Positions 3,830-49,210 of a stretch of DNA of 64,000 nt are shown in pieces. The DNA lies in the NCBI RefSeq assembly GCF_018502625.1, contig NZ_CP075566.1, positions 5,583,001-5,647,000 of the forward strand, read 5' to 3'. Each line of letters opens with the position of its first letter. The stretch's first letter is position 1. Position numbers and translations under genes: made by a program. The notes beneath the pieces are model-generated. The model was not told the origin of the DNA, did no database searches, and saw only the letters and a list, made by a program, of their open reading frames with translations. This DNA comes from Pseudomonas hormoni (GTDB lineage: Bacteria; Pseudomonadota; Gammaproteobacteria; Pseudomonadales; Pseudomonadaceae).

Positions 3830-6800
3830 ATGTTTGCACCGGCTAATGCCGCGCAATTCACCCTTACGATCCCGGGGGTTCGCAACGATTTTAAAGTGCT
3901 GGCATTTGAAGGCACTGAAACCATCAGCGCGCTGTACTCAATCAGCGTCGATCTGGTCAGCGAATACCCGGATTTCGATCTGGAGAGCTTGCTCAACCAA
4001 CCTGCATTTCTCCAATTCGGCTTTAACGGCGAAGGCATTCATGGCCATATCGACGGGGTGTCCGTGGGCGATGCCGGCAAACGCCTGACGCGCTATCGCA
4101 TGAACCTGGTACCGGTACTGCACGACTTGCAGTTCAGCCATGATCAGCGGATTTTCCAGAACAAAACGGCGCCTCAGATCATCGCTCAGGTACTGAAGGG
4201 GCATGGCATCCAGGCCGATGCGGTGACCTTCCACGTCAGAACGAGCCCCGAGCGCCGGCACTGCACTCAATACCGGGAAAGTGATTTCGAGTTCGTCCAG
4301 CGGCTGTGCGCCGAGGATGGCATTGCCTGGCATCACCAGCATTCCCGGGAAGGTCACGTGCTGGTCTTCACCGATGACCAGACCGCCTTTCCAAAATTGA
4401 GTGAAACGCCTTATCTGCAAGACGCCGGCATGGTGGCGGAGCATCCGGTCGTCAGCCAGTTTTCCATGCGTTACAGCACTCGCCCCAGCAAAGTCACTCG
4501 CCGACACTACGACCCGAAGCGCCCGAGCGCGCTGCTGGAAAGTCGCGTCATCGCCGAGTTCAGCCCAGAGCTTGAAGACTATCGTTATCCGCAATTTTTC
4601 GAGAGTGAAAAACACGGCAAACAACTCGCTCGGCAAGCACTGGAGCGGCACCGCGCCGACTATCAATTGGCGGAGGGCAAAAGCGATCAGCCGTGCCTGC
4701 GCAGCGGCCACTTTTTCAGCCTGACGGATCACCCACGTGAAACGTACAACGATCTATGGCTGTTGCTCAGTGTGACCCACTCCGGAAAACAGCCCCAAGT
4801 GCTAGAAGAGTCGGCCCCCAAACCTGGAGATGGTTTTACTCAGGGCTACCGCAATAGTTTCAGCGCAATTCCCTGGGACGTGTTTTATCGGCCACCACTG
4901 CCGGCACCACGACCTGCCCTGGTCTGCCAGACCGCGCGCGTCACCGGGCCTGTCGGTGAAGAGATCTACTGCGACGAATACGGTCGCGTCAAAGTGGAAT
5001 TCCATTGGGACCGCGCTGAGCACAACAGCGAAAAAAGCAGTTGTTGGCTACGGGTGGCGTCCAGTTGGGCGGGGGATCATTTCGGCGCGGTGATCATTCC
5101 GCGTATCGGCATGGAAGTCCTCGTCACCTACCTCGAAGGCAATCCTGACGACCCGCTGATCACCGGTTGCCTGATCAACAAGGTCACTCCGGCGCCCTAC
5201 CCCTTACCCGAGCACAAAACCAGAACCGTGCTGCGTAGCCATAGCTCTCCGCATAACGGCGGCTACAACGAACTGTCGATTGAAGACCGCGCCGGGCAGG
5301 AGTTGATCTACCTGCGTGCCCAGCGGGATATGGAGCAGAAGGTCGGGAACGACAGCCGATTGGACGTGGGCAACGAGCGTCGGGAAACCATCAAGGGCGA
5401 CAGCATTTCGGTGCTCGGCGCTGAAGAACATCGCACGGTTACGGCGGATCGCAAGGTTCACCTGAAGGCCAGTGACTATTTGCAGGTTGCCGGGAGCAGC
5501 CACAACCAGATTGGCGAAGCGTTGGTGGTTGAGGCCGGTGAGCACGTTCATATCAAGGCGGGGGCCAATCTGGTACTGGACGCGGGCGCCAGCATTACGT
5601 TGAAGGCGGGTGGTCACCATGTCGTGATCGATGCGGGTGGGGTGTTCAGCAGTAGCGAGGTTGAGGTCGGTGGTTCGCCGGTGGTGGGGTTGGCGGCGCA
5701 TGCGCTGTTGCCGGGGACGGTGGCGGGGTTGTTGGCGGCGGTTGTGCCTGAGCCGCAGGAAGAGGATGAGCTGGAGGAAGAAGAGGAAGAGGTTGAAGAA
5801 GAAGGGATTACTTTGCGAATCGGAGTGTTCTTCGATGGCACGGGTAACAACAAAGCCAACAGTGAGACCGTGGCAGCGTGTTATGCGCCGGACGCCAAAT
5901 TGGAGGAGGCTGCCGAGGAGGTACAGAAGTATTGCGCGGCTTATGGGTATGACGGCAATGGGAGCTCGCCGGACAATAGTTATGGGAATGATGTGAGCAA
6001 TATTGTCCGGCTTTACAAACTCTATGAAGACCGAGTGGACGAAACGCTTTCGCCAGAAGTAACGAAGACCTCAATCGCCGTTTATGTTGAGGGCATCGGG
6101 ACCACGAGCGGTGGTGAAGACTCACGCTACTCCCAAGCAACGGGGCGGGGCGAAACAGGGGTAGCTGCCCGGGTTGAGCAGAGTCCGGCGCTTATCATGG
6201 AACAGTTACGCCGATTGGATGAAAAGAATCCGGGGGTGAAGATTGATCGGATTGAATTCGATATTTTCGGTTTTAGCCGAGGTGCAGCCGCCGCACGACA
6301 CTTTGCAAATGAAGTCCTCAAGGGCGAGCAAAACGCTCTTGCGAAATCACTGCCGACTGGCTCTCCGATGTTGTCCAGCAACTTCAACTGGCGCGTCAAA
6401 ACTGATGTCACCATCAACTTCATTGGCCTGTTCGATACTGTTGCGTCCATCGCCAACCCTTGGGTGCTTGACTTCACTGGTGCCAACAGCAGAAACCCTT
6501 TTCTCAATCTCAGACTCCCGGACGACTGTGCCAATAAGGTTGTGCACTTGGTCGCGCGAGACGAAATCCGTGAAAATTTCGCCCTCAACAGCCTCGGTGA
6601 TACAGACCTGATTTTACCCGGTGTGCACTCAGACCTCGGCGGTGGTTATTTGCCAATAGCCCAAGAAAAGCTGCTGCTGGGTAAACCCTTAACAAGCACC
6701 GTGAGCGAGAGCACGGACGCAACTCGCACTGAGGCCTACCTTTGCGCCGAAAAAGAGGCATTCGCTTGGTATGGAAAAGGCGTCATCGAATTCGAAGGGC

Positions 6801-7249
6801 CTCGTAACAAAGTCAAAGTGGCGTATTGGGAAACACCGCTGCCTTACTCAAAAGGGCCAGCTGGAACCAATGTCGAACAACAGAAGAAGGTTTTTGCAAC
6901 TGCCGCAATTGAGCGCTCGGTCCGAGGCGAACTGTCGCTTGTGTATTTACGGATCATGCGTGAGCTGGCGGTCAGGCACGATGTGCCATTCAAGCTAATC
7001 CCCGATATTCCAACCCTGCGATTACCCGATGAACTGGAGCCTATCCACAAAAAGCTGCAGGCGTATGCCCTTGGCGAAACAACGGTCGAGGGATTAACCC
7101 ACCAAGAACGAGCATTGCTACGCAGTCGCTACATCCACATCTCCGCTAGCTGGAACGCAGCCAAAGATCTCAATAGCAGCGATATGAGCGTTCTTTTCAT
7201 CAACCGACCGGCTCGAGACAACAAGCGAGTGGTGCACCCCAATGAATAA
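3830..7249 (+). CDS. VgrG spike protein fused to a Tle1-type (DUF2235) phospholipase effector
   Basis: This is an evolved VgrG of 1139 residues. Residues about 1-500 form the gp27/gp5-like spike base (NQPAFLQFGFNGEGIHGHI, then the OB-fold segment GPVGEEIYCDEYGRVKVEFH). Residues 500-620 are the beta-helix needle. A run of glutamates (about 643-659) links to a DUF2235 domain beginning near 660 (LRIGVFFDGTGNNKAN). This domain has the lipase elbow GFSRGA with Ser816, and Asp869 (GLFDTVA) and His933 (GVHSDLGGGY) as the likely rest of the triad. By family knowledge it would be delivered by the T6SS and attack phospholipids of rival cells. The ATG has a good ribosome binding site, and the stop overlaps the downstream DUF2931 gene by 8 bases. 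Confidence 0.93.
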   Translation: MFAPANAAQFTLTIPGVRNDFKVLAFEGTETISALYSISVDLVSEYPDFDLESLLNQPAFLQFGFNGEGIHGHIDGVSVGDAGKRLTRYRMNLVPVLHDLQFSHDQRIFQNKTAPQIIAQVLKGHGIQADAVTFHVRTSPERRHCTQYRESDFEFVQRLCAEDGIAWHHQHSREGHVLVFTDDQTAFPKLSETPYLQDAGMVAEHPVVSQFSMRYSTRPSKVTRRHYDPKRPSALLESRVIAEFSPELEDYRYPQFFESEKHGKQLARQALERHRADYQLAEGKSDQPCLRSGHFFSLTDHPRETYNDLWLLLSVTHSGKQPQVLEESAPKPGDGFTQGYRNSFSAIPWDVFYRPPLPAPRPALVCQTARVTGPVGEEIYCDEYGRVKVEFHWDRAEHNSEKSSCWLRVASSWAGDHFGAVIIPRIGMEVLVTYLEGNPDDPLITGCLINKVTPAPYPLPEHKTRTVLRSHSSPHNGGYNELSIEDRAGQELIYLRAQRDMEQKVGNDSRLDVGNERRETIKGDSISVLGAEEHRTVTADRKVHLKASDYLQVAGSSHNQIGEALVVEAGEHVHIKAGANLVLDAGASITLKAGGHHVVIDAGGVFSSSEVEVGGSPVVGLAAHALLPGTVAGLLAAVVPEPQEEDELEEEEEEVEEEGITLRIGVFFDGTGNNKANSETVAACYAPDAKLEEAAEEVQKYCAAYGYDGNGSSPDNSYGNDVSNIVRLYKLYEDRVDETLSPEVTKTSIAVYVEGIGTTSGGEDSRYSQATGRGETGVAARVEQSPALIMEQLRRLDEKNPGVKIDRIEFDIFGFSRGAAAARHFANEVLKGEQNALAKSLPTGSPMLSSNFNWRVKTDVTINFIGLFDTVASIANPWVLDFTGANSRNPFLNLRLPDDCANKVVHLVARDEIRENFALNSLGDTDLILPGVHSDLGGGYLPIAQEKLLLGKPLTSTVSESTDATRTEAYLCAEKEAFAWYGKGVIEFEGPRNKVKVAYWETPLPYSKGPAGTNVEQQKKVFATAAIERSVRGELSLVYLRIMRELAVRHDVPFKLIPDIPTLRLPDELEPIHKKLQAYALGETTVEGLTHQERALLRSRYIHISASWNAAKDLNSSDMSVLFINRPARDNKRVVHPNE

Positions 7250-7913
7250 TTTCTCCTGTCTTTTCGTCAAATGCACCAGCTTACTGTTCGGGCTGCTTTT
7301 TACTGGTGACTCGCAGAGCTTCGCCCAAACCGGTAAGGAATTACCTTGGTTCTTGGGTTTTTCAGCACCGGCTTATATGGAAGTCTGGATTGAAACTGCA
7401 GACGTGGTGGATATCCAAGAGAGGGTATTCCGAGGTGCAGGAGGGGGTATCGCCTCTGTTCCAAGGCCACCAAACAATCAAGGCATTGCCAGAGGGTGGG
7501 CCAGTAGCAACGGCGGAGGGAAAGGGCGCCATGTCACGGGAGCCGATCTACCAAGGTTAATCTACGTGCGTTGGCAATCGCTGGCAGAACCACAAACTTA
7601 CGAGGCCTATATCGTTATCCCCGAATCCGCTCGGGAAATCATGCGCCGACCTGAAAAAGCCTTCTGCCGGGCTGACGGTAAACGGATCACCGACTACCGC
7701 GACGACATTGGCATTGGTCTGGCGCCGGGCGGTATTGCCAAGGTCTGGCTGGGCGGCCCTTGCTTGAAGGCGGTCGAAATTCTTCGGGTTGTGGGCAACG
7801 TCAATTCACAAGGTCCCTCTCAGGGAAAAAATGAAGGTCGTTATGCTCTGCCTTTGGAGCCGGAGTCCAAAGCGTACATTGAGAAGTTCGGAATTCCTTA
7901 TGGCTCTTGGTAA
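7242..7913 (+). CDS. DUF2931-family protein, probable immunity protein for the VgrG-linked phospholipase (copy 1)
   Basis: The 223-residue product has an N-terminal signal-like hydrophobic segment (CTSLLFGLLFTGDSQSFAQ), so it should act in the periplasm. It then has a DUF2931-like body with LPWFLGFSAPAYMEVWIETA and the conserved DDIGIGLAPGGIAKVWLGGP. The ATG lies inside the 3' end of the effector gene, so the pair is translationally coupled. This position is usual for a cognate immunity protein of Tle effectors. No lipobox cysteine is obvious. A near-identical paralogue follows directly. The immunity role is inferred from position, export and family. Confidence 0.82.
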   Translation: MNNFSCLFVKCTSLLFGLLFTGDSQSFAQTGKELPWFLGFSAPAYMEVWIETADVVDIQERVFRGAGGGIASVPRPPNNQGIARGWASSNGGGKGRHVTGADLPRLIYVRWQSLAEPQTYEAYIVIPESAREIMRRPEKAFCRADGKRITDYRDDIGIGLAPGGIAKVWLGGPCLKAVEILRVVGNVNSQGPSQGKNEGRYALPLEPESKAYIEKFGIPYGSW

Positions 7914-8604
7914 CCACTACCTCGAGGCCTCGCCGATCATCAAACCGGCCAAGCCAATCAAGAAATACACCGGCCTGTTGGTTGGATTGCTGTTGGCTTT
8001 CAGCTCGCAAAGCTTCGCACAACCGGAAAGGAAATTGCCTTGGTTCCTGGGGTTTTCAGCGCCGGCTTACATGGAGGTATGGATTGAAACTGCAGACGTG
8101 GTGGATATAAGGGAGCGGGTATTCCGAGGTGCAGGAGGTGGTATCGCCTCTGTGCCAAAACCTCCAAATAATCGGGGTATTGCCAGAGGTTGGGTCAGCA
8201 GTAACGGGAGTGGAAAAGGTCGCCATGTCACGGGTGCCGATCTACCACAATTGATCTACGTGCGCTGGCAGTCGTTGGCAGAACCACAAACCTACGAGGC
8301 TTACATCGTCATTCCCGAATCAGCACGGGAGATCATGCGCAAACCCCAAAAGGCCTTTTGCAGGGCTGACGGTAAGTGGATCACCGACTACCGCGACGAC
8401 ATTGGTATTGGTCTGGCTCCGGGCGGTATTGCCAAGGTCTGGTTGGGAGGCCCCTGCTTGAAGTCGGTTGAGATAGGTCGAGTCGAAGGAACCATTAACC
8501 CAAGGGGTCCCTATGGAGGAGAATCCGGTGGCAAGTATCGACCCTTGTCCGAAACATCCAAGGTTTACATAGAGAAGTTCGGAATCCCCTATGGAAGCTG
8601 GTAA
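7900..8604 (+). CDS. DUF2931-family protein, probable immunity protein (copy 2, tandem duplicate)
   Basis: A 234-residue paralogue of the preceding gene, nearly identical over most of the mature part (LPWFLGFSAPAYMEVWIETA, GGIASVP, DDIGIGLAPGGIAKVWLGGP, EKFGIPYGSW). Its N-terminus differs (MALGNHYLEASPIIKPAKPI, then hydrophobic LLVGLLLAFSSQSFAQ), giving a signal segment with a longer charged n-region. The ATG at 7900 overlaps the end of copy 1. The Shine-Dalgarno is weak, so translation may depend on coupling. The two copies differ mainly near the C-terminus (the segment before the terminal EKFGIPYGSW), which could reflect specificity for different effector variants. Confidence 0.8.
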   Translation: MALGNHYLEASPIIKPAKPIKKYTGLLVGLLLAFSSQSFAQPERKLPWFLGFSAPAYMEVWIETADVVDIRERVFRGAGGGIASVPKPPNNRGIARGWVSSNGSGKGRHVTGADLPQLIYVRWQSLAEPQTYEAYIVIPESAREIMRKPQKAFCRADGKWITDYRDDIGIGLAPGGIAKVWLGGPCLKSVEIGRVEGTINPRGPYGGESGGKYRPLSETSKVYIEKFGIPYGSW

Positions 8605-8989
8605 GGAATGCCAACATTTCCGATGGTTAAACACCATTCAACAGCGCTTGTTTAAAACACCTCAAGGTTACGTCCTGCAAGCTACAACACCTTGCGTCGT
8701 TGCCTACGGCTACGCCAGAATCCGCCGGCTTGTGCGCCTTGGGGCTGGTCGGTAACTTGGTTCGTGTCACTGCTCATCAGTGATCGGGTTTAGTCGCTCG
8801 CTGGTAATTGAAGATGCACGAGCATCCGTCAGACAGGTATTCGTACCTGAGTTTGATGGTGGCTGTGCGTAGGGCACCTTCGGGTGCGCCGGCTTCTTCA
8901 ATTCCCCGGTCCGACTAACCTGCGTACAGCTGCCACCCCTTCGTTTAGTCGGCGAAGTGGTGTCGGCATCACTCAAGGAATTGAAGATC
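8605..8989 (+). other. Intergenic region with the structured leader of the DUF6124 gene
   Basis: This 385-base stretch contains no credible protein gene. From about 8767 to the start codon at 8990 it is densely folded in potential, with at least five inverted repeats (described separately as a candidate regulatory RNA). The upstream part (8605-8760) presumably holds the promoter, but I could not pick out a convincing -35/-10 pair. Confidence 0.6.
8767..8989 (+). promoter_or_regulatory. Candidate cis-regulatory RNA switch controlling translation of the DUF6124 gene
   Basis: Elements in order: hairpin TCACTG/CAGTGA (8767-8783); arm A (8787-8814); stem-loop 8816-8868 with inner CAGGTA-TTCG-TACCTG (8834-8849); stem-loop 8872-8890 with a TTCG loop; arm B (8893-8920); hairpin P4 (8929-8943 with 8953-8967). 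Arm B pairs with arm A (AATTGAAGA with TCTTCAATT, and TTAGTCG with CGACTAA), closing a three-way junction. Arm B also contains CTTCAATTCC (8896-8905), the exact complement of GGAATTGAAG at 8977-8986, which holds the Shine-Dalgarno. CCGACTAA (8911-8918) likewise complements TTAGTCGG in the P4 loop (8945-8952). The two folds are mutually exclusive, so an ON/OFF ribosome-access switch is inferred. Confidence 0.6.
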
Positions 8990-9385
8990 ATGTTCAAGGT
9001 AACTCCCAACCCGCCAGACACCGACCCAATCTCCCCATACGAAAGCCCCGACTCAAACAAACTCAACGAAGCCGCCGAACGCGCCCTCGACCATCACTTC
9101 CCGCCAACCGAACCCAAACCACCGAAACGCAACGGCCAGCTCTTCGCTGTCTGCCCCGGCATCAACACTGAAGCCCTCCTCGCCAACGCCTCGGAAGACC
9201 TGCTGTCCATCAGCGCCATCGCCGCCGACCTTGCCGACGATGTGGACGGCTCACGCCGCTCGGTAGCCCTGGCGCTCAGCCGCATGGCCGACGGCGTGCA
9301 TTTGTTGGTGGAGCGGGCGCTGGATCATCTGGATGAACCGGAGATGGCGGCGATTTTCGCCAAGCAACAACTCCGCGTCGATTGA
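8990..9385 (+). CDS. DUF6124/DUF3077-like small protein of unknown function
   Basis: The 131-residue product resembles a family of short Pseudomonas proteins (DUF6124 or DUF3077) with an acidic, proline-rich N-terminus and a helical C-terminal half (LLANASEDLLSISAIAADLA, SRRSVALALSRMADGVHLLV). No signal peptide, membrane segment or catalytic motif is visible, so it is probably cytoplasmic. The ATG at 8990 follows AAGGAATTGAAG. That ribosome binding region is the one complementary to arm B of the upstream leader. It stands alone on its strand and ends in a REP pair, then a terminator shared with hupN. The function is unknown. Confidence 0.75.
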   Translation: MFKVTPNPPDTDPISPYESPDSNKLNEAAERALDHHFPPTEPKPPKRNGQLFAVCPGINTEALLANASEDLLSISAIAADLADDVDGSRRSVALALSRMADGVHLLVERALDHLDEPEMAAIFAKQQLRVD

Positions 9386-9387
9386 CC

Positions 9388-9477
9388 TGTAGGAGCCGGC
9401 TTGCTGGCGATGGCGGTGTGTCAGGCGACTTCAATGTTGATTGGTAAGCCGCTATCGCCAGCAATCCGGCTCCTACA
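9388..9477. repeat. REP pair (inverted), TGTAGGAGCCGGCTTGC family
   Basis: Two copies of the roughly 23-base REP sequence TGTAGGAGCCGGCTTGCTGG face each other with about 45 bases between them, forming a REPIN-type palindrome immediately after the DUF6124 stop. The sequence is extragenic and can form a long hairpin in either strand. Confidence 0.85.
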
Positions 9478-9530
9478 AGGGTCATGTGTTGTCTGATCCG
9501 TGGGCGACCAGCATGACCTTCGCACCCACA

Positions 9531-9570
9531 AAAAAATGGGCACCCAACCCAGTTGGCGTGCCCATTTTTT
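9531..9570. terminator. Bidirectional terminator between the DUF6124 gene and hupN
   Basis: A perfect 13-bp inverted repeat (AAAAAATGGGCAC / GTGCCCATTTTTT) has an A run on one side and a T run on the other, so it terminates transcripts from both converging genes. Confidence 0.9.
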
Positions 9571-9606
9571 ATTCCGCTCCCGCGCTACGCGGGAAGTCGG
9601 TCGGTG

Positions 9607-9882
9607 TTACGGATTAACGCTGTCTTTCAACGATTTGCCTGGCTTGAATGCAACGGTGTTGCTGGCCTTGATTTTCACTGGCTCACCGGTTTGCGGGTTT
9701 TTGCCGGTGCGGGCTCCGCGGTGGCGTTGCAGGAAGGTGCCGAAGCCTACCAGCGTCACGCTGTCCTTGCGGTGCAGAGCGCCGGTGATTTCTTCGAGAA
9801 CGGCGTTGAGTACTCGGTTGGCCTGCTCTTTGGTGAGATCTGCTTTTTCCGCGATGGCGGCGGCGAGTTCTGGTTTACGCAT
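9607..9882 (-). CDS. hupN: HU-family DNA-binding protein (HupN type)
   Basis: The 91-residue protein has the full HU/IHF fold. The N-terminal helices are MRKPELAAAIAEKADLTKEQ, and the signature GFGTF precedes the flexible arm with GARTGKNPQTGEPVKIKAS. It would act as a dimeric, non-specific nucleoid architectural protein. The position next to rubB-rubA and ubiC-ubiA matches that recalled for hupN of P. putida, rather than hupB by lon or hupA elsewhere, so the hupN symbol is context-based. Confidence 0.92.
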   Translation of the reverse strand: MRKPELAAAIAEKADLTKEQANRVLNAVLEEITGALHRKDSVTLVGFGTFLQRHRGARTGKNPQTGEPVKIKASNTVAFKPGKSLKDSVNP

Positions 9883-47659: not shown

Positions 47660-49210
47660 TTACACCTTCCAGACCTGTCGCAAACGTGCCAGGGCCGACT
47701 TGATCGCCGGCTCTGGCACCGCGGCAAAACCCAGCACCAGACCGGCCCGCTGGTCTTCGGGGGTTGTCGAGTCCGGCAGCCAGTAACTGCTCAAGCCGTT
47801 GATTTCCACATCGACACTTTGCGCTTGCTCGATCAGTTGCCGTTCACGGGCCACACTGTTCACGGCCACCGTCAGGTGCAGCCCGGCGGAAACGGCGGGC
47901 AGGCTGCCGACACCGACAATCTCCGGCGGCCAGCCCTCCATCAGCGCGTTGCGCCGGCTCAGGGCGGCCCTGCGCATGCGACGGATATGCCGCTGGAAAT
48001 GCCCGGCAGCCATGAACTCAGCCATCACCGCCTGGGTGCTGACTTCGGAGTGCCGGACATCGACCGCGCGACGCTGGGAGAACGCGTTCACCAGCGCCGG
48101 CGGCAATACCAGATACCCAAGACGCAACGCCGGAAAAGCGACTTTGCCAAAGGTCCCGACGTACAACACCCGCCCTTGTCGGTCGAGCGCCGCCAGCGGT
48201 GCCAGTGGCGCGCCGCTGTAACGGTATTCGCCATCGTAGTCATCCTCGACGATCCAGCCCTGTGTGCGTTCAGCCCAGGCCAACAACTCAAGGCGTCGCG
48301 CCAGGCTCATCACCACCCCGGTCGGGTATTGATGCGAGGGCGTGACATACGCCAGACGACAATTGCCGAGCGCAGCCAGTTCGGCACAGTCGATGCCCTC
48401 GCCGTCGACCGCCACGCCATGCAATCGCGCACCGGCCACCGCGAACGCATGACCCGCCGCGCGGTACCCCGGATTCTCAATCGCCACACCGTCCCCCGGC
48501 TCCACCAGCAGCTGTGCACAAAGGCTAATCCCTTGCTGTGCGCCACTGGTGATCACAATTTGCTCAGCCGTGCATTGCATGCCCCGGGAACTGCGCAAAT
48601 AAGCGGCAATCATTCCGCGCAAACGCGCATCGCCTGCCGGGTCGCCGTAACACAGCTGCTGTAAATCCGGTTTCCGCCAGAAAGCCGCATTCAGCTTGGC
48701 CCAGACCTCGAAGGGAAATAGATCGAACGCTGGAACGCCCACCCGAAAGGCACGAGGCGGGCCACTCGGCGGCGTGGCCAAATGGTTCTTTTCAACCCGC
48801 CCCAACGCTCCGCTGTGGATAACTTTACTGGATGGAACCACAGGTAAATCGAGCCAATTTGTGGATAAGGCTGTGGGTAACCCTGTTGACAACCCTGTGG
48901 ATACTTTTGTGGATAGTTTTTTTTCCGGGAGCGCGGTTTGCGGCAATTGCGCGACATAGGTCCCGTCGCCCACACGCCCTTCGATAAACCCTTCGGCATA
49001 GAGCTGATCGTAAGCCCGCACCACGCTGTTGCGGGAAATCGCCAGTGCGGCCGCAAGATCGCGGCTGGCCGGCAATCGCGTGCCACTGGCCAATCGACCA
49101 TCGAGCACACGCAAGCGCAAAGCCTGGTAGAGCTGACGACTCAAGCCCTGACGGCGATCAAGTTCGATACCCGCAGGGTTGAACGACAAGGAAAGCGGCG
49201 CATCCGTCAT
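47660..49210 (-). CDS. MocR-family regulator: GntR winged helix fused to a PLP aminotransferase-like domain
   Basis: The 516-residue protein has a GntR helix-turn-helix (residues about 20-85, RLPASRDLAAALAISRNSVV) and an unusual linker (about 95-150) built partly of tetrapeptide repeats LSTK-VSTG-LSTG-LPTA-LSTN. A fold type I aminotransferase domain follows (about 150-510) with LVEPGDGVAIENPGY, VEDDYDGEYRY and the PLP-Lys motif GTFGKVAFPALRLGY. It is divergent from the paiB-GNAT operon and likely regulates it or a vitamin-B6/amine pathway. GGACC-type elements lie in the gap. Confidence 0.92.
   Translation of the reverse strand: MTDAPLSLSFNPAGIELDRRQGLSRQLYQALRLRVLDGRLASGTRLPASRDLAAALAISRNSVVRAYDQLYAEGFIEGRVGDGTYVAQLPQTALPEKKLSTKVSTGLSTGLPTALSTNWLDLPVVPSSKVIHSGALGRVEKNHLATPPSGPPRAFRVGVPAFDLFPFEVWAKLNAAFWRKPDLQQLCYGDPAGDARLRGMIAAYLRSSRGMQCTAEQIVITSGAQQGISLCAQLLVEPGDGVAIENPGYRAAGHAFAVAGARLHGVAVDGEGIDCAELAALGNCRLAYVTPSHQYPTGVVMSLARRLELLAWAERTQGWIVEDDYDGEYRYSGAPLAPLAALDRQGRVLYVGTFGKVAFPALRLGYLVLPPALVNAFSQRRAVDVRHSEVSTQAVMAEFMAAGHFQRHIRRMRRAALSRRNALMEGWPPEIVGVGSLPAVSAGLHLTVAVNSVARERQLIEQAQSVDVEINGLSSYWLPDSTTPEDQRAGLVLGFAAVPEPAIKSALARLRQVWKV
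48814..48916 (+). repeat. 12-bp tandem repeat of DnaA-box-like motifs inside the MocR linker
   Basis: Plus-strand TGTGGATAA (reverse complement TTATCCACA, the DnaA box) occurs at 48814 and 48860. Related 9-mers then follow at exact 12-base steps: TGTGGGTAA (48872), TGTTGACAA (48884), TGTGGATAC (48896), TGTGGATAG (48908). The array encodes the linker tetrapeptide repeats on the minus strand. Whether DnaA binds is untested. Confidence 0.7.

Follow-up and report, generated by a model that had tools for sequence, protein, structure and literature searches.

A C4-type antisense RNA module precedes a DUF6124 gene in Pseudomonas hormoni and recurs across the genus with matched, distinct pairing words

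Introduction

C4 is the antisense RNA with which phage P1 keeps its antirepressor silent. Excerpts of PMC5320573 and PMC12197685 describe the class as processed antisense RNAs that pair with a target mRNA: in P1 and P7, C4 is released from the leader by RNase P, its a' part determines specificity and its b' part masks the ribosome-binding site. In the annotation of phage P1 record AF234172, a1 (48255-48261) and b1 (48269-48276) are followed by C4 (48343-48419), a2 (48423-48429), b2 (48452-48459) and icd from 48470, and P1 C4 scores 68.8 bits against the Rfam C4 model RF01695. C4 predictions in several proteobacterial orders, including Pseudomonadales, are cited in the excerpted text of PMC5320573, and both C4 and c4-a1b1 are listed in that of PMC2864571. 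The closest multicopy precedent comes from Acinetobacter baumannii, where the excerpt of PMC5320573 describes 21 similar Group 1 C4-like sRNAs in one genome; all but three of the 15 full-length sRNAs analysed are said to show C4 features, with a variable a' loop and RNA-seq indications that processing occurs at a GGW motif. Literature searches on C4 and on DUF6124/DUF3077 gave no paper joining them among the matches listed, and the one DUF3077 paper among them, PMC9630843, does no more in its excerpt than note a mutation.

Here, we analysed a 64,000-nt stretch of the P. hormoni chromosome (contig NZ_CP075566.1, positions 5,583,001 to 5,647,000; hereafter the window, to which all unprefixed coordinates refer). 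A preliminary description of this DNA had read the leader of a DUF6124 gene as a riboswitch-like translational switch of no class that it recognised as described. We compared this leader with the C4 systems of phages and bacteria and followed it through the genus Pseudomonas and viral contigs.

Results

A cmscan of the window against Rfam returned RF01695, the C4 antisense RNA, as the sole match above cut-off, located on the forward strand at 8852-8940 and scoring 74.1 bits against a gathering score of 45 over model positions 1-87 of 87. The proposal of a new riboswitch class was rejected on this match. Folded alone, 8852-8940 adopts the three-stem C4 structure with the Rfam stems P1, P2 and P3 (-43.8 kcal/mol); the preliminary description had missed both this fold and the family score. 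The longer leader (8767-9000) folds better than 200/200 dinucleotide shuffles (z -4.07). In an alignment of 25 C4 sequences, 16/27 stem pairs change on both sides, a value reached by 0/500 shuffles, and helix 3 is paired at 62.4% on the MAFFT alignment, probably owing to gap placement. GGT at 8858-8860 lies at the base of P1, and the corresponding triplet among 74 copies is GGC in 43, GGT in 30 and GGG in one. By analogy with P1, the mature RNA would probably extend from ~8858 (GGTGG...) to ~8937 (...CCACC). No consensus sigma-70 promoter was found by a promoter scan of 8560-9640.

The two recognition words of C4 have complements on both sides of it, all annotated on the forward strand. According to the Rfam structure line, the b' loop (CTTCTTCAATTCC, 8893-8905) is the loop of stem P3, and the a' strand (CCGACTAA, 8911-8918) lies between P3 and the 3' strand of P1. 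Downstream, CCGACTAA is the exact reverse complement of TTAGTCGG at 8945-8952, the a2 target site, while CTTCAATTCC at 8896-8905 is the exact reverse complement of GGAATTGAAG at 8977-8986, extending to 11 nt when 8895/8987 are counted, which makes GGAATTGAAGA at 8977-8987 the b2 target site. Both sites were assigned from these word matches and from places comparable to those of a2 and b2 in P1. Upstream, TTAGTCG and AATTGAAGA are both present in arm A (8787-8814): the former, at 8790-8796, is the a1 copy of the a target, an exact 7-nt complement of a' within a sub-threshold RF03163 (c4-a1b1) match at 8753-8804, and the latter, at 8806-8814, is the b1 copy, an exact 9-nt complement of the b' loop. 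The b2 site overlaps a likely Shine-Dalgarno sequence (AAGGA, 8975-8979, by eye) and stops 2 bases short of the ATG at 8990 of the 131-aa DUF6124 gene (8990-9385; PF19619, E 1.1e-24), the regulated gene in the C4 reading. A composite pattern, TTAGTCG-N(4-34)-AATTGAAG, occurs three times in the 6.48-Mb genome, all at the window locus, as a1b1, C4 itself (other strand) and a2b2; the reversed control pattern has 0 occurrences in the same 6.48 Mb. All word positions and complementarities in the preliminary description are exact, and it was right that one strand can pair with either an upstream arm or the start region and that both carry the same two words in the same order: its arm B corresponds to the b' loop together with the a' strand, its arm A to a1/b1 and its start-codon words to a2/b2. 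Judged from its sequence, the element is a C4 RNA by score, three-stem fold with covariation, complementarity of a'/b' to a2/b2 and the presence of upstream a1/b1, as it is in its sites, geometry and the co-variation of sites with loops.

Own-site pairing was scrutinized in three sets, comprising the window genome (19 C4s), Pseudomonas genome G049 (55) and one locus from each of 29 genomes (30 minus L035, near which the contig ends; L041 was moved to G049 for the a1+a2 test, leaving 28). Matches of at least 7 nt between a' and its own a2 were found for 16/19 C4s in the window genome (mismatched pairs 4.7%), 47/55 in G049 (3.4%) and 28/29 in the genus set (16.9%), and between b' and its own b2 for 9/19 (3.8%), 36/55 (2.9%) and 23/29 (9.1%), respectively. 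Pairing of b' is weaker than that of a', and b1 is often badly matched. One word of at least 6 nt was exact at both a1 and a2 in 17/19, 52/55 and 27/28 cases, compared with 5.3%, 5.1% and 17.5% of mismatched pairs, and involved 13, 34 and 12 different words. Cutting a' at a fixed offset misses slipped copies (13/19 exact), and a wider stretch with the same control was used for these pairing counts. Run on phage P1, the pairing script recovered 7-nt a' matches at a1 and a2 and an 8-nt b' match at b2.

The summed duplex energy of own pairs was reached by 0/20000 permutations (z -10.3 in the window genome and -21.7 in G049). Ranked by this sum, the own target came first for 17/19, 36/55 and 22/29 C4s, and the own C4 came first for 12/19, 32/55 and 26/29 targets. 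By a energy alone, the own target ranked first in only 5/19 and 27/55 cases in the window genome and G049, and by b energy alone in 9/19 and 18/55; neither word is specific by itself. Two-strand folding of C4 with its target left C4 folded, with no a'/b' pairing, a result set aside since the method cannot represent loop-loop contacts.

Codes, defined as the pair (a',b'), are distinct in 19/19 copies of the window genome and 55/55 of G049, where no within-genome pair shares both words. The b' loop is common to 0/171 and 0/1485 pairs and a' to 6/171 and 46/1485, respectively. The 55 copies of G049 carry 31 a' words and 55 b' loops, with loops cut at fixed offsets, so that slippage in some copies may make these counts too high. 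Between genomes, 128/281 pairs with scaffold identity of at least 0.9 share both loops. The distinctness of codes within a genome looks like insulation, which is suggested only, because these between-genome pairs are largely orthologues and are no fair null for within-genome copies. Most of the closest relatives listed (L149-L151, L154-L156 and L161) keep the window code. Loci L152, L153, L157 and L159 encode proteins 88-92% identical to that of the window and have other loops, with matches of at least 7 nt at a1, a2 and b2 and short ones (4-6 nt) at b1. The neighbours L105 and L106 in G049 encode proteins that are 94% identical and differ in b', and their b' loops match their own b2 regions over 6 nt and 7 nt.

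The window genome holds 19 C4 matches, 18 of them over cut-off, and G049 holds 55, of which 52 are over cut-off. Across 59 genomes of the genus, a C4 match occurs in at least 54 and exceeds the cut-off in at least 53, with a median of at least 17 and a highest count of at least 54 copies, these being lower bounds as up to 61 candidates were scored per genome. Among 185 genomes of the class, including the window genome, at least seven carry C4, the other six with at least 1 to 3 copies each, again lower bounds with up to 22 candidates scored per genome. C4 was absent from 14 named control genomes. In the 59 genomes of the genus, C4 copy number tracks DUF6124 copy number (Spearman 0.88).

Among the best 80 of 408 relatives of the window protein, all loci belong to Pseudomonas, the nearest being in P. 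migulae (95%), and C4 lies upstream in the same orientation at 70. At 69/70 of these, the protein match starts 45-56 nt after the end of C4; at the exception, L218, the gap is 70 nt and the protein match starts only at residue 38. A sample of 30 DUF6124 loci, one per genome, had C4 at 21, verified upstream on the same strand for 19/21. Since 9/30 of these loci lack a C4 over cut-off, as do 10/80 of the closer relatives, DUF6124 does not require C4. At one DUF6124 gene with no C4 (L065, G000:C1:1899708-1902896), RF03163 c4-a1b1 lies just upstream, and this gene is possibly the target of a C4 made elsewhere. Two other DUF6124 genes without a C4 match (L077 and L078) adjoin a PrrF RNA, and in another genome a C4-DUF6124 module is followed by a TwoAYGGAY RNA (RF01731; L052, 1072-1191).

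The genes following C4 are diverse. In the window genome, Pfam assigned DUF6124 to the products after four C4s (L004, L011, L014, which is the window locus, and L015), DUF3077 after three (L001, L007 and L012) and Bro-N after one (L019); 10 C4s precede small proteins with no Pfam match over cut-off, and L009 is a C4 with no gene. Of 47 downstream proteins near the expected start in G049, 31 are DUF6124, three Bro-N, two DUF3077 and 11 none of these. The other 8/55 have no open frame near the expected start, and at L080, L082 and L123 a short frame precedes a DUF3077 gene. At these three loci and also at L001 and L042, the frame after C4 is a leader of 27-38 codons, its stop codon overlapping the start codon of DUF3077 as ATGA. 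The DUF3077 protein of L042 also matches DUF6124 at E 3.1e-4, below cut-off, and on this sequence similarity the two families may be related. A relation of P1 Icd to DUF3077/DUF6124 was considered and discarded, as Pfam shows none. The N-terminus of one Bro-N protein (L112, MIKVTPNPP) resembles those of DUF6124 proteins, and L132 (MLKHTLNPS) looks like L112 by eye, as if one leader had been fused to different payloads; the N-terminus of P1 Icd, MVNANP, is a further such case. At 11 loci (L020, L021, L022, L027, L030, L033, L034, L037, L040, L046 and L047) the best-scoring C4 of the respective genome precedes a similar 52-57 aa protein, for which the L040 member gave no Pfam match. Four C4 matches (L009, L130, L131 and L133) have no clear gene downstream, and L009 and L133, which also lack matching sites, are both followed by similar CGGCCAAAA sequence.

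The window DUF6124 protein is predicted to form four helices (mean pLDDT 85.1, pTM 0.51). This structure had no match with E <=0.001 in PDB or BFVD, and the protein had no match in NCBIfam, a non-significant one in PADLOC (E 0.066) and one in PHROGs, to a family of unknown function (E 2.6e-4). On the chromosome, the locus is preceded by a VgrG/Tle1-type frame and a pair of DUF2931 genes; downstream come HU, a rubredoxin-reductase-like gene, chorismate lyase and UbiA. In the upstream region (3830-8604), phage-hub/VgrG-type domains occur together with a T6SS Tle1-like domain in a 1139-aa frame, which is followed by the two DUF2931 genes, which are similar to each other; the frame is perhaps an effector with duplicated partner genes. 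After the DUF6124 gene, 9386-9490 contains an inverted GTAGGAGCCGG.../...CCGGCTCCTAC pair (by eye), which we take to resemble a Pseudomonas REP element.

Viral sequences carry the same arrangement. On IMG/VR contigs, 54 of 55 loci with DUF6124 relatives have C4 upstream on the same strand, the lone exception (L238) lying at a contig end. These C4s end 45-58 nt before the protein match in 46 cases and 523-546 nt before it in eight; a' matches its own a2 over at least 7 nt in 53/54, and b' matches b2 in 32/54. A search of 50,697 phage records found a relative of the window protein in one only (DVM-2008) and DNA similar to the leader in nine, of which all four examined carry C4. The cassette therefore travels on phage-like contigs as well as residing in chromosomes.

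These data bear on whether chromosomal C4s are mainly immunity RNAs against incoming phages of the same code, the attached small protein being incidental. We consider this unlikely, though it is the strongest of the alternatives. Besides the frequency of C4-DUF6124 on viral contigs, 4/54 viral C4s have an (a',b') code found exactly among 132 codes sampled from chromosomes, one being L244, whose code is that of L011 in the window genome, and the excerpt of PMC5320573 names incoming-phage targeting as one possibility for Acinetobacter. The same excerpt calls regulation of bacterial transcripts potentially more likely. Moreover, a matched target adjoins nearly every C4 and C4s with no clear gene are few (L009 in the window genome; L130, L131 and L133 in G049); hence, self-repression of the linked gene looks to be the common rule.

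Discussion

The leader of the window DUF6124 gene is very probably a C4 antisense RNA module of the P1/P7 kind, complete in its order of a1-b1-C4-a2-b2-start codon, and would be carried on one transcript, released by RNase P and active in silencing DUF6124. Transcription, processing, repression and action in trans are the steps that we infer. A single transcript would cover a1-b1-C4-a2-b2-DUF6124, from which RNase P would free a C4 RNA of ~80 nt. Pairing of its a' to a2, and of its b' loop to b2 over the ribosome-binding site, would then keep the DUF6124 protein from being made while C4 is present. In the precursor, a1/b1 could hold a'/b'. The predicted minimum free energy of the a1b1-C4 precursor is -72.3 kcal/mol, and -71.1 kcal/mol with the C4 P1 stem forced; because these two folds are nearly equal in predicted energy, a1/b1 may time C4 release. 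Modules differ in their a'/b' words, and each would therefore be expected to be a stronger silencer of itself and of incoming modules that share its words than of its neighbours.

The near-equality of these folds, which makes the alternative pairings of the preliminary description real as predictions, also fits a cis-acting riboswitch or attenuator, in which a small molecule or other trigger switches between the arm A/arm B fold and an exposed start site. The a1/b1 and a2/b2 sites carry the same words, and a cis switch could coexist with C4 release. Such a device is nonetheless very improbable here, given that the element belongs to a named antisense family. Aptamers require conserved unpaired bases, and the riboswitch reading is disfavoured because the unpaired recognition parts, a' and b', are the strongly variable ones, as the fixed-offset word counts of G049 illustrate, the reverse of an aptamer. 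Of 12 invariant columns, nine are in stems and the rest are the tetraloop G, one A of a' and the tail C; conserved unpaired ligand-binding bases were not seen, nor was any sign of a ligand. The sequence facts and the notion of an alternatively pairing leader in the preliminary description hold, as does its link to DUF6124/DUF3077 genes, which the 70/80 related loci bear out, and the covariation it sought was found, in loops that follow their sites and in stem pairs that change on both sides; its assignment to riboswitches does not stand. Nor is placement random, as it had considered: a mobile or selfish repeat that conserves its stem but regulates nothing would explain dispersed copies in one genome and presence on viral contigs, yet is hardly credible for an element that keeps its strand and its distance from the gene start, whose loops vary in step with the sites flanking them and whose copy number tracks that of DUF6124.

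Returning to the antisense module, a broader proposal is that Pseudomonas genomes hold tens of mutually insulated C4 cassettes whose private codes act as heteroimmunity classes, as in P1/P7, silencing themselves and phage newcomers of the same code while largely ignoring the rest. The C4 leader would then be a portable start cassette to which payloads (DUF6124, DUF3077, Bro-N and the 52-57 aa proteins) are joined by fusion or ATGA coupling. We put this forward tentatively, rating it at somewhat below an even chance. The scale itself stands out, with up to tens of C4 copies per genome, most having their own matched words before a small gene. A supposed new riboswitch becomes a testable antisense circuit, and a single cell offers dozens of natural RNA-RNA repressor/target pairs that may be orthogonal, of use for studying the evolution of antisense specificity and for synthetic regulation. 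The circuit also provides a handle on the function of DUF6124 and DUF3077 genes. Since these genes look to be kept off by a phage-type repressor RNA and ride on viral contigs, their products are suggested to act at phage entry, establishment or competition.

Compared with P1 C4, the window element shares the RNA fold, GG at the expected processing site, the a' and b' parts and the order a1-b1-C4-a2-b2-start, with similar spacing. Counted from where the C4 model match ends, a2, b2 and the start lie at +1, +30 and +48 in P1 and at +5, +37 and +50 in the window. P1 icd overlaps ant1 in the same layout as at the loci with a short leader frame and DUF3077. The regulated gene differs, being icd/ant in P1/P7 and a chromosomal DUF6124 gene (PF19619), not a phage antirepressor, in the window, with Bro-N after C4 only at L019 in the window genome and at 3/47 scanned genes in G049. 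Unlike P1/P7, one Pseudomonas genome holds many paralogous C4 copies with different words. The upstream a1/b1 site is held in common with c4-a1b1 (RF03163), whose match in the window scores 24.0 bits at a loose threshold, below the gathering score of 46.7, and which exceeds cut-off at sister loci L050, L051, L057, L060, L065, L072 and L075. IsrK of Salmonella prophage Gifsy-1 (RF01394) has no match over cut-off in the window; in phages PAJU2 and vB_Pae_U10 (L137 and L138), it overlaps the c4-a1b1 match just upstream of C4, and by this overlap the two families may describe the same region. For the Acinetobacter set, no targets are assigned in the excerpted text of PMC5320573, whereas in Pseudomonas the neighbouring gene is the target, with a1, a' and a2 changing in concert. 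Because C4 and the multicopy C4-like set of Acinetobacter are already published, the window element is a member of a known family, and what deserves attention is the genus-wide set of matched, distinct codes.
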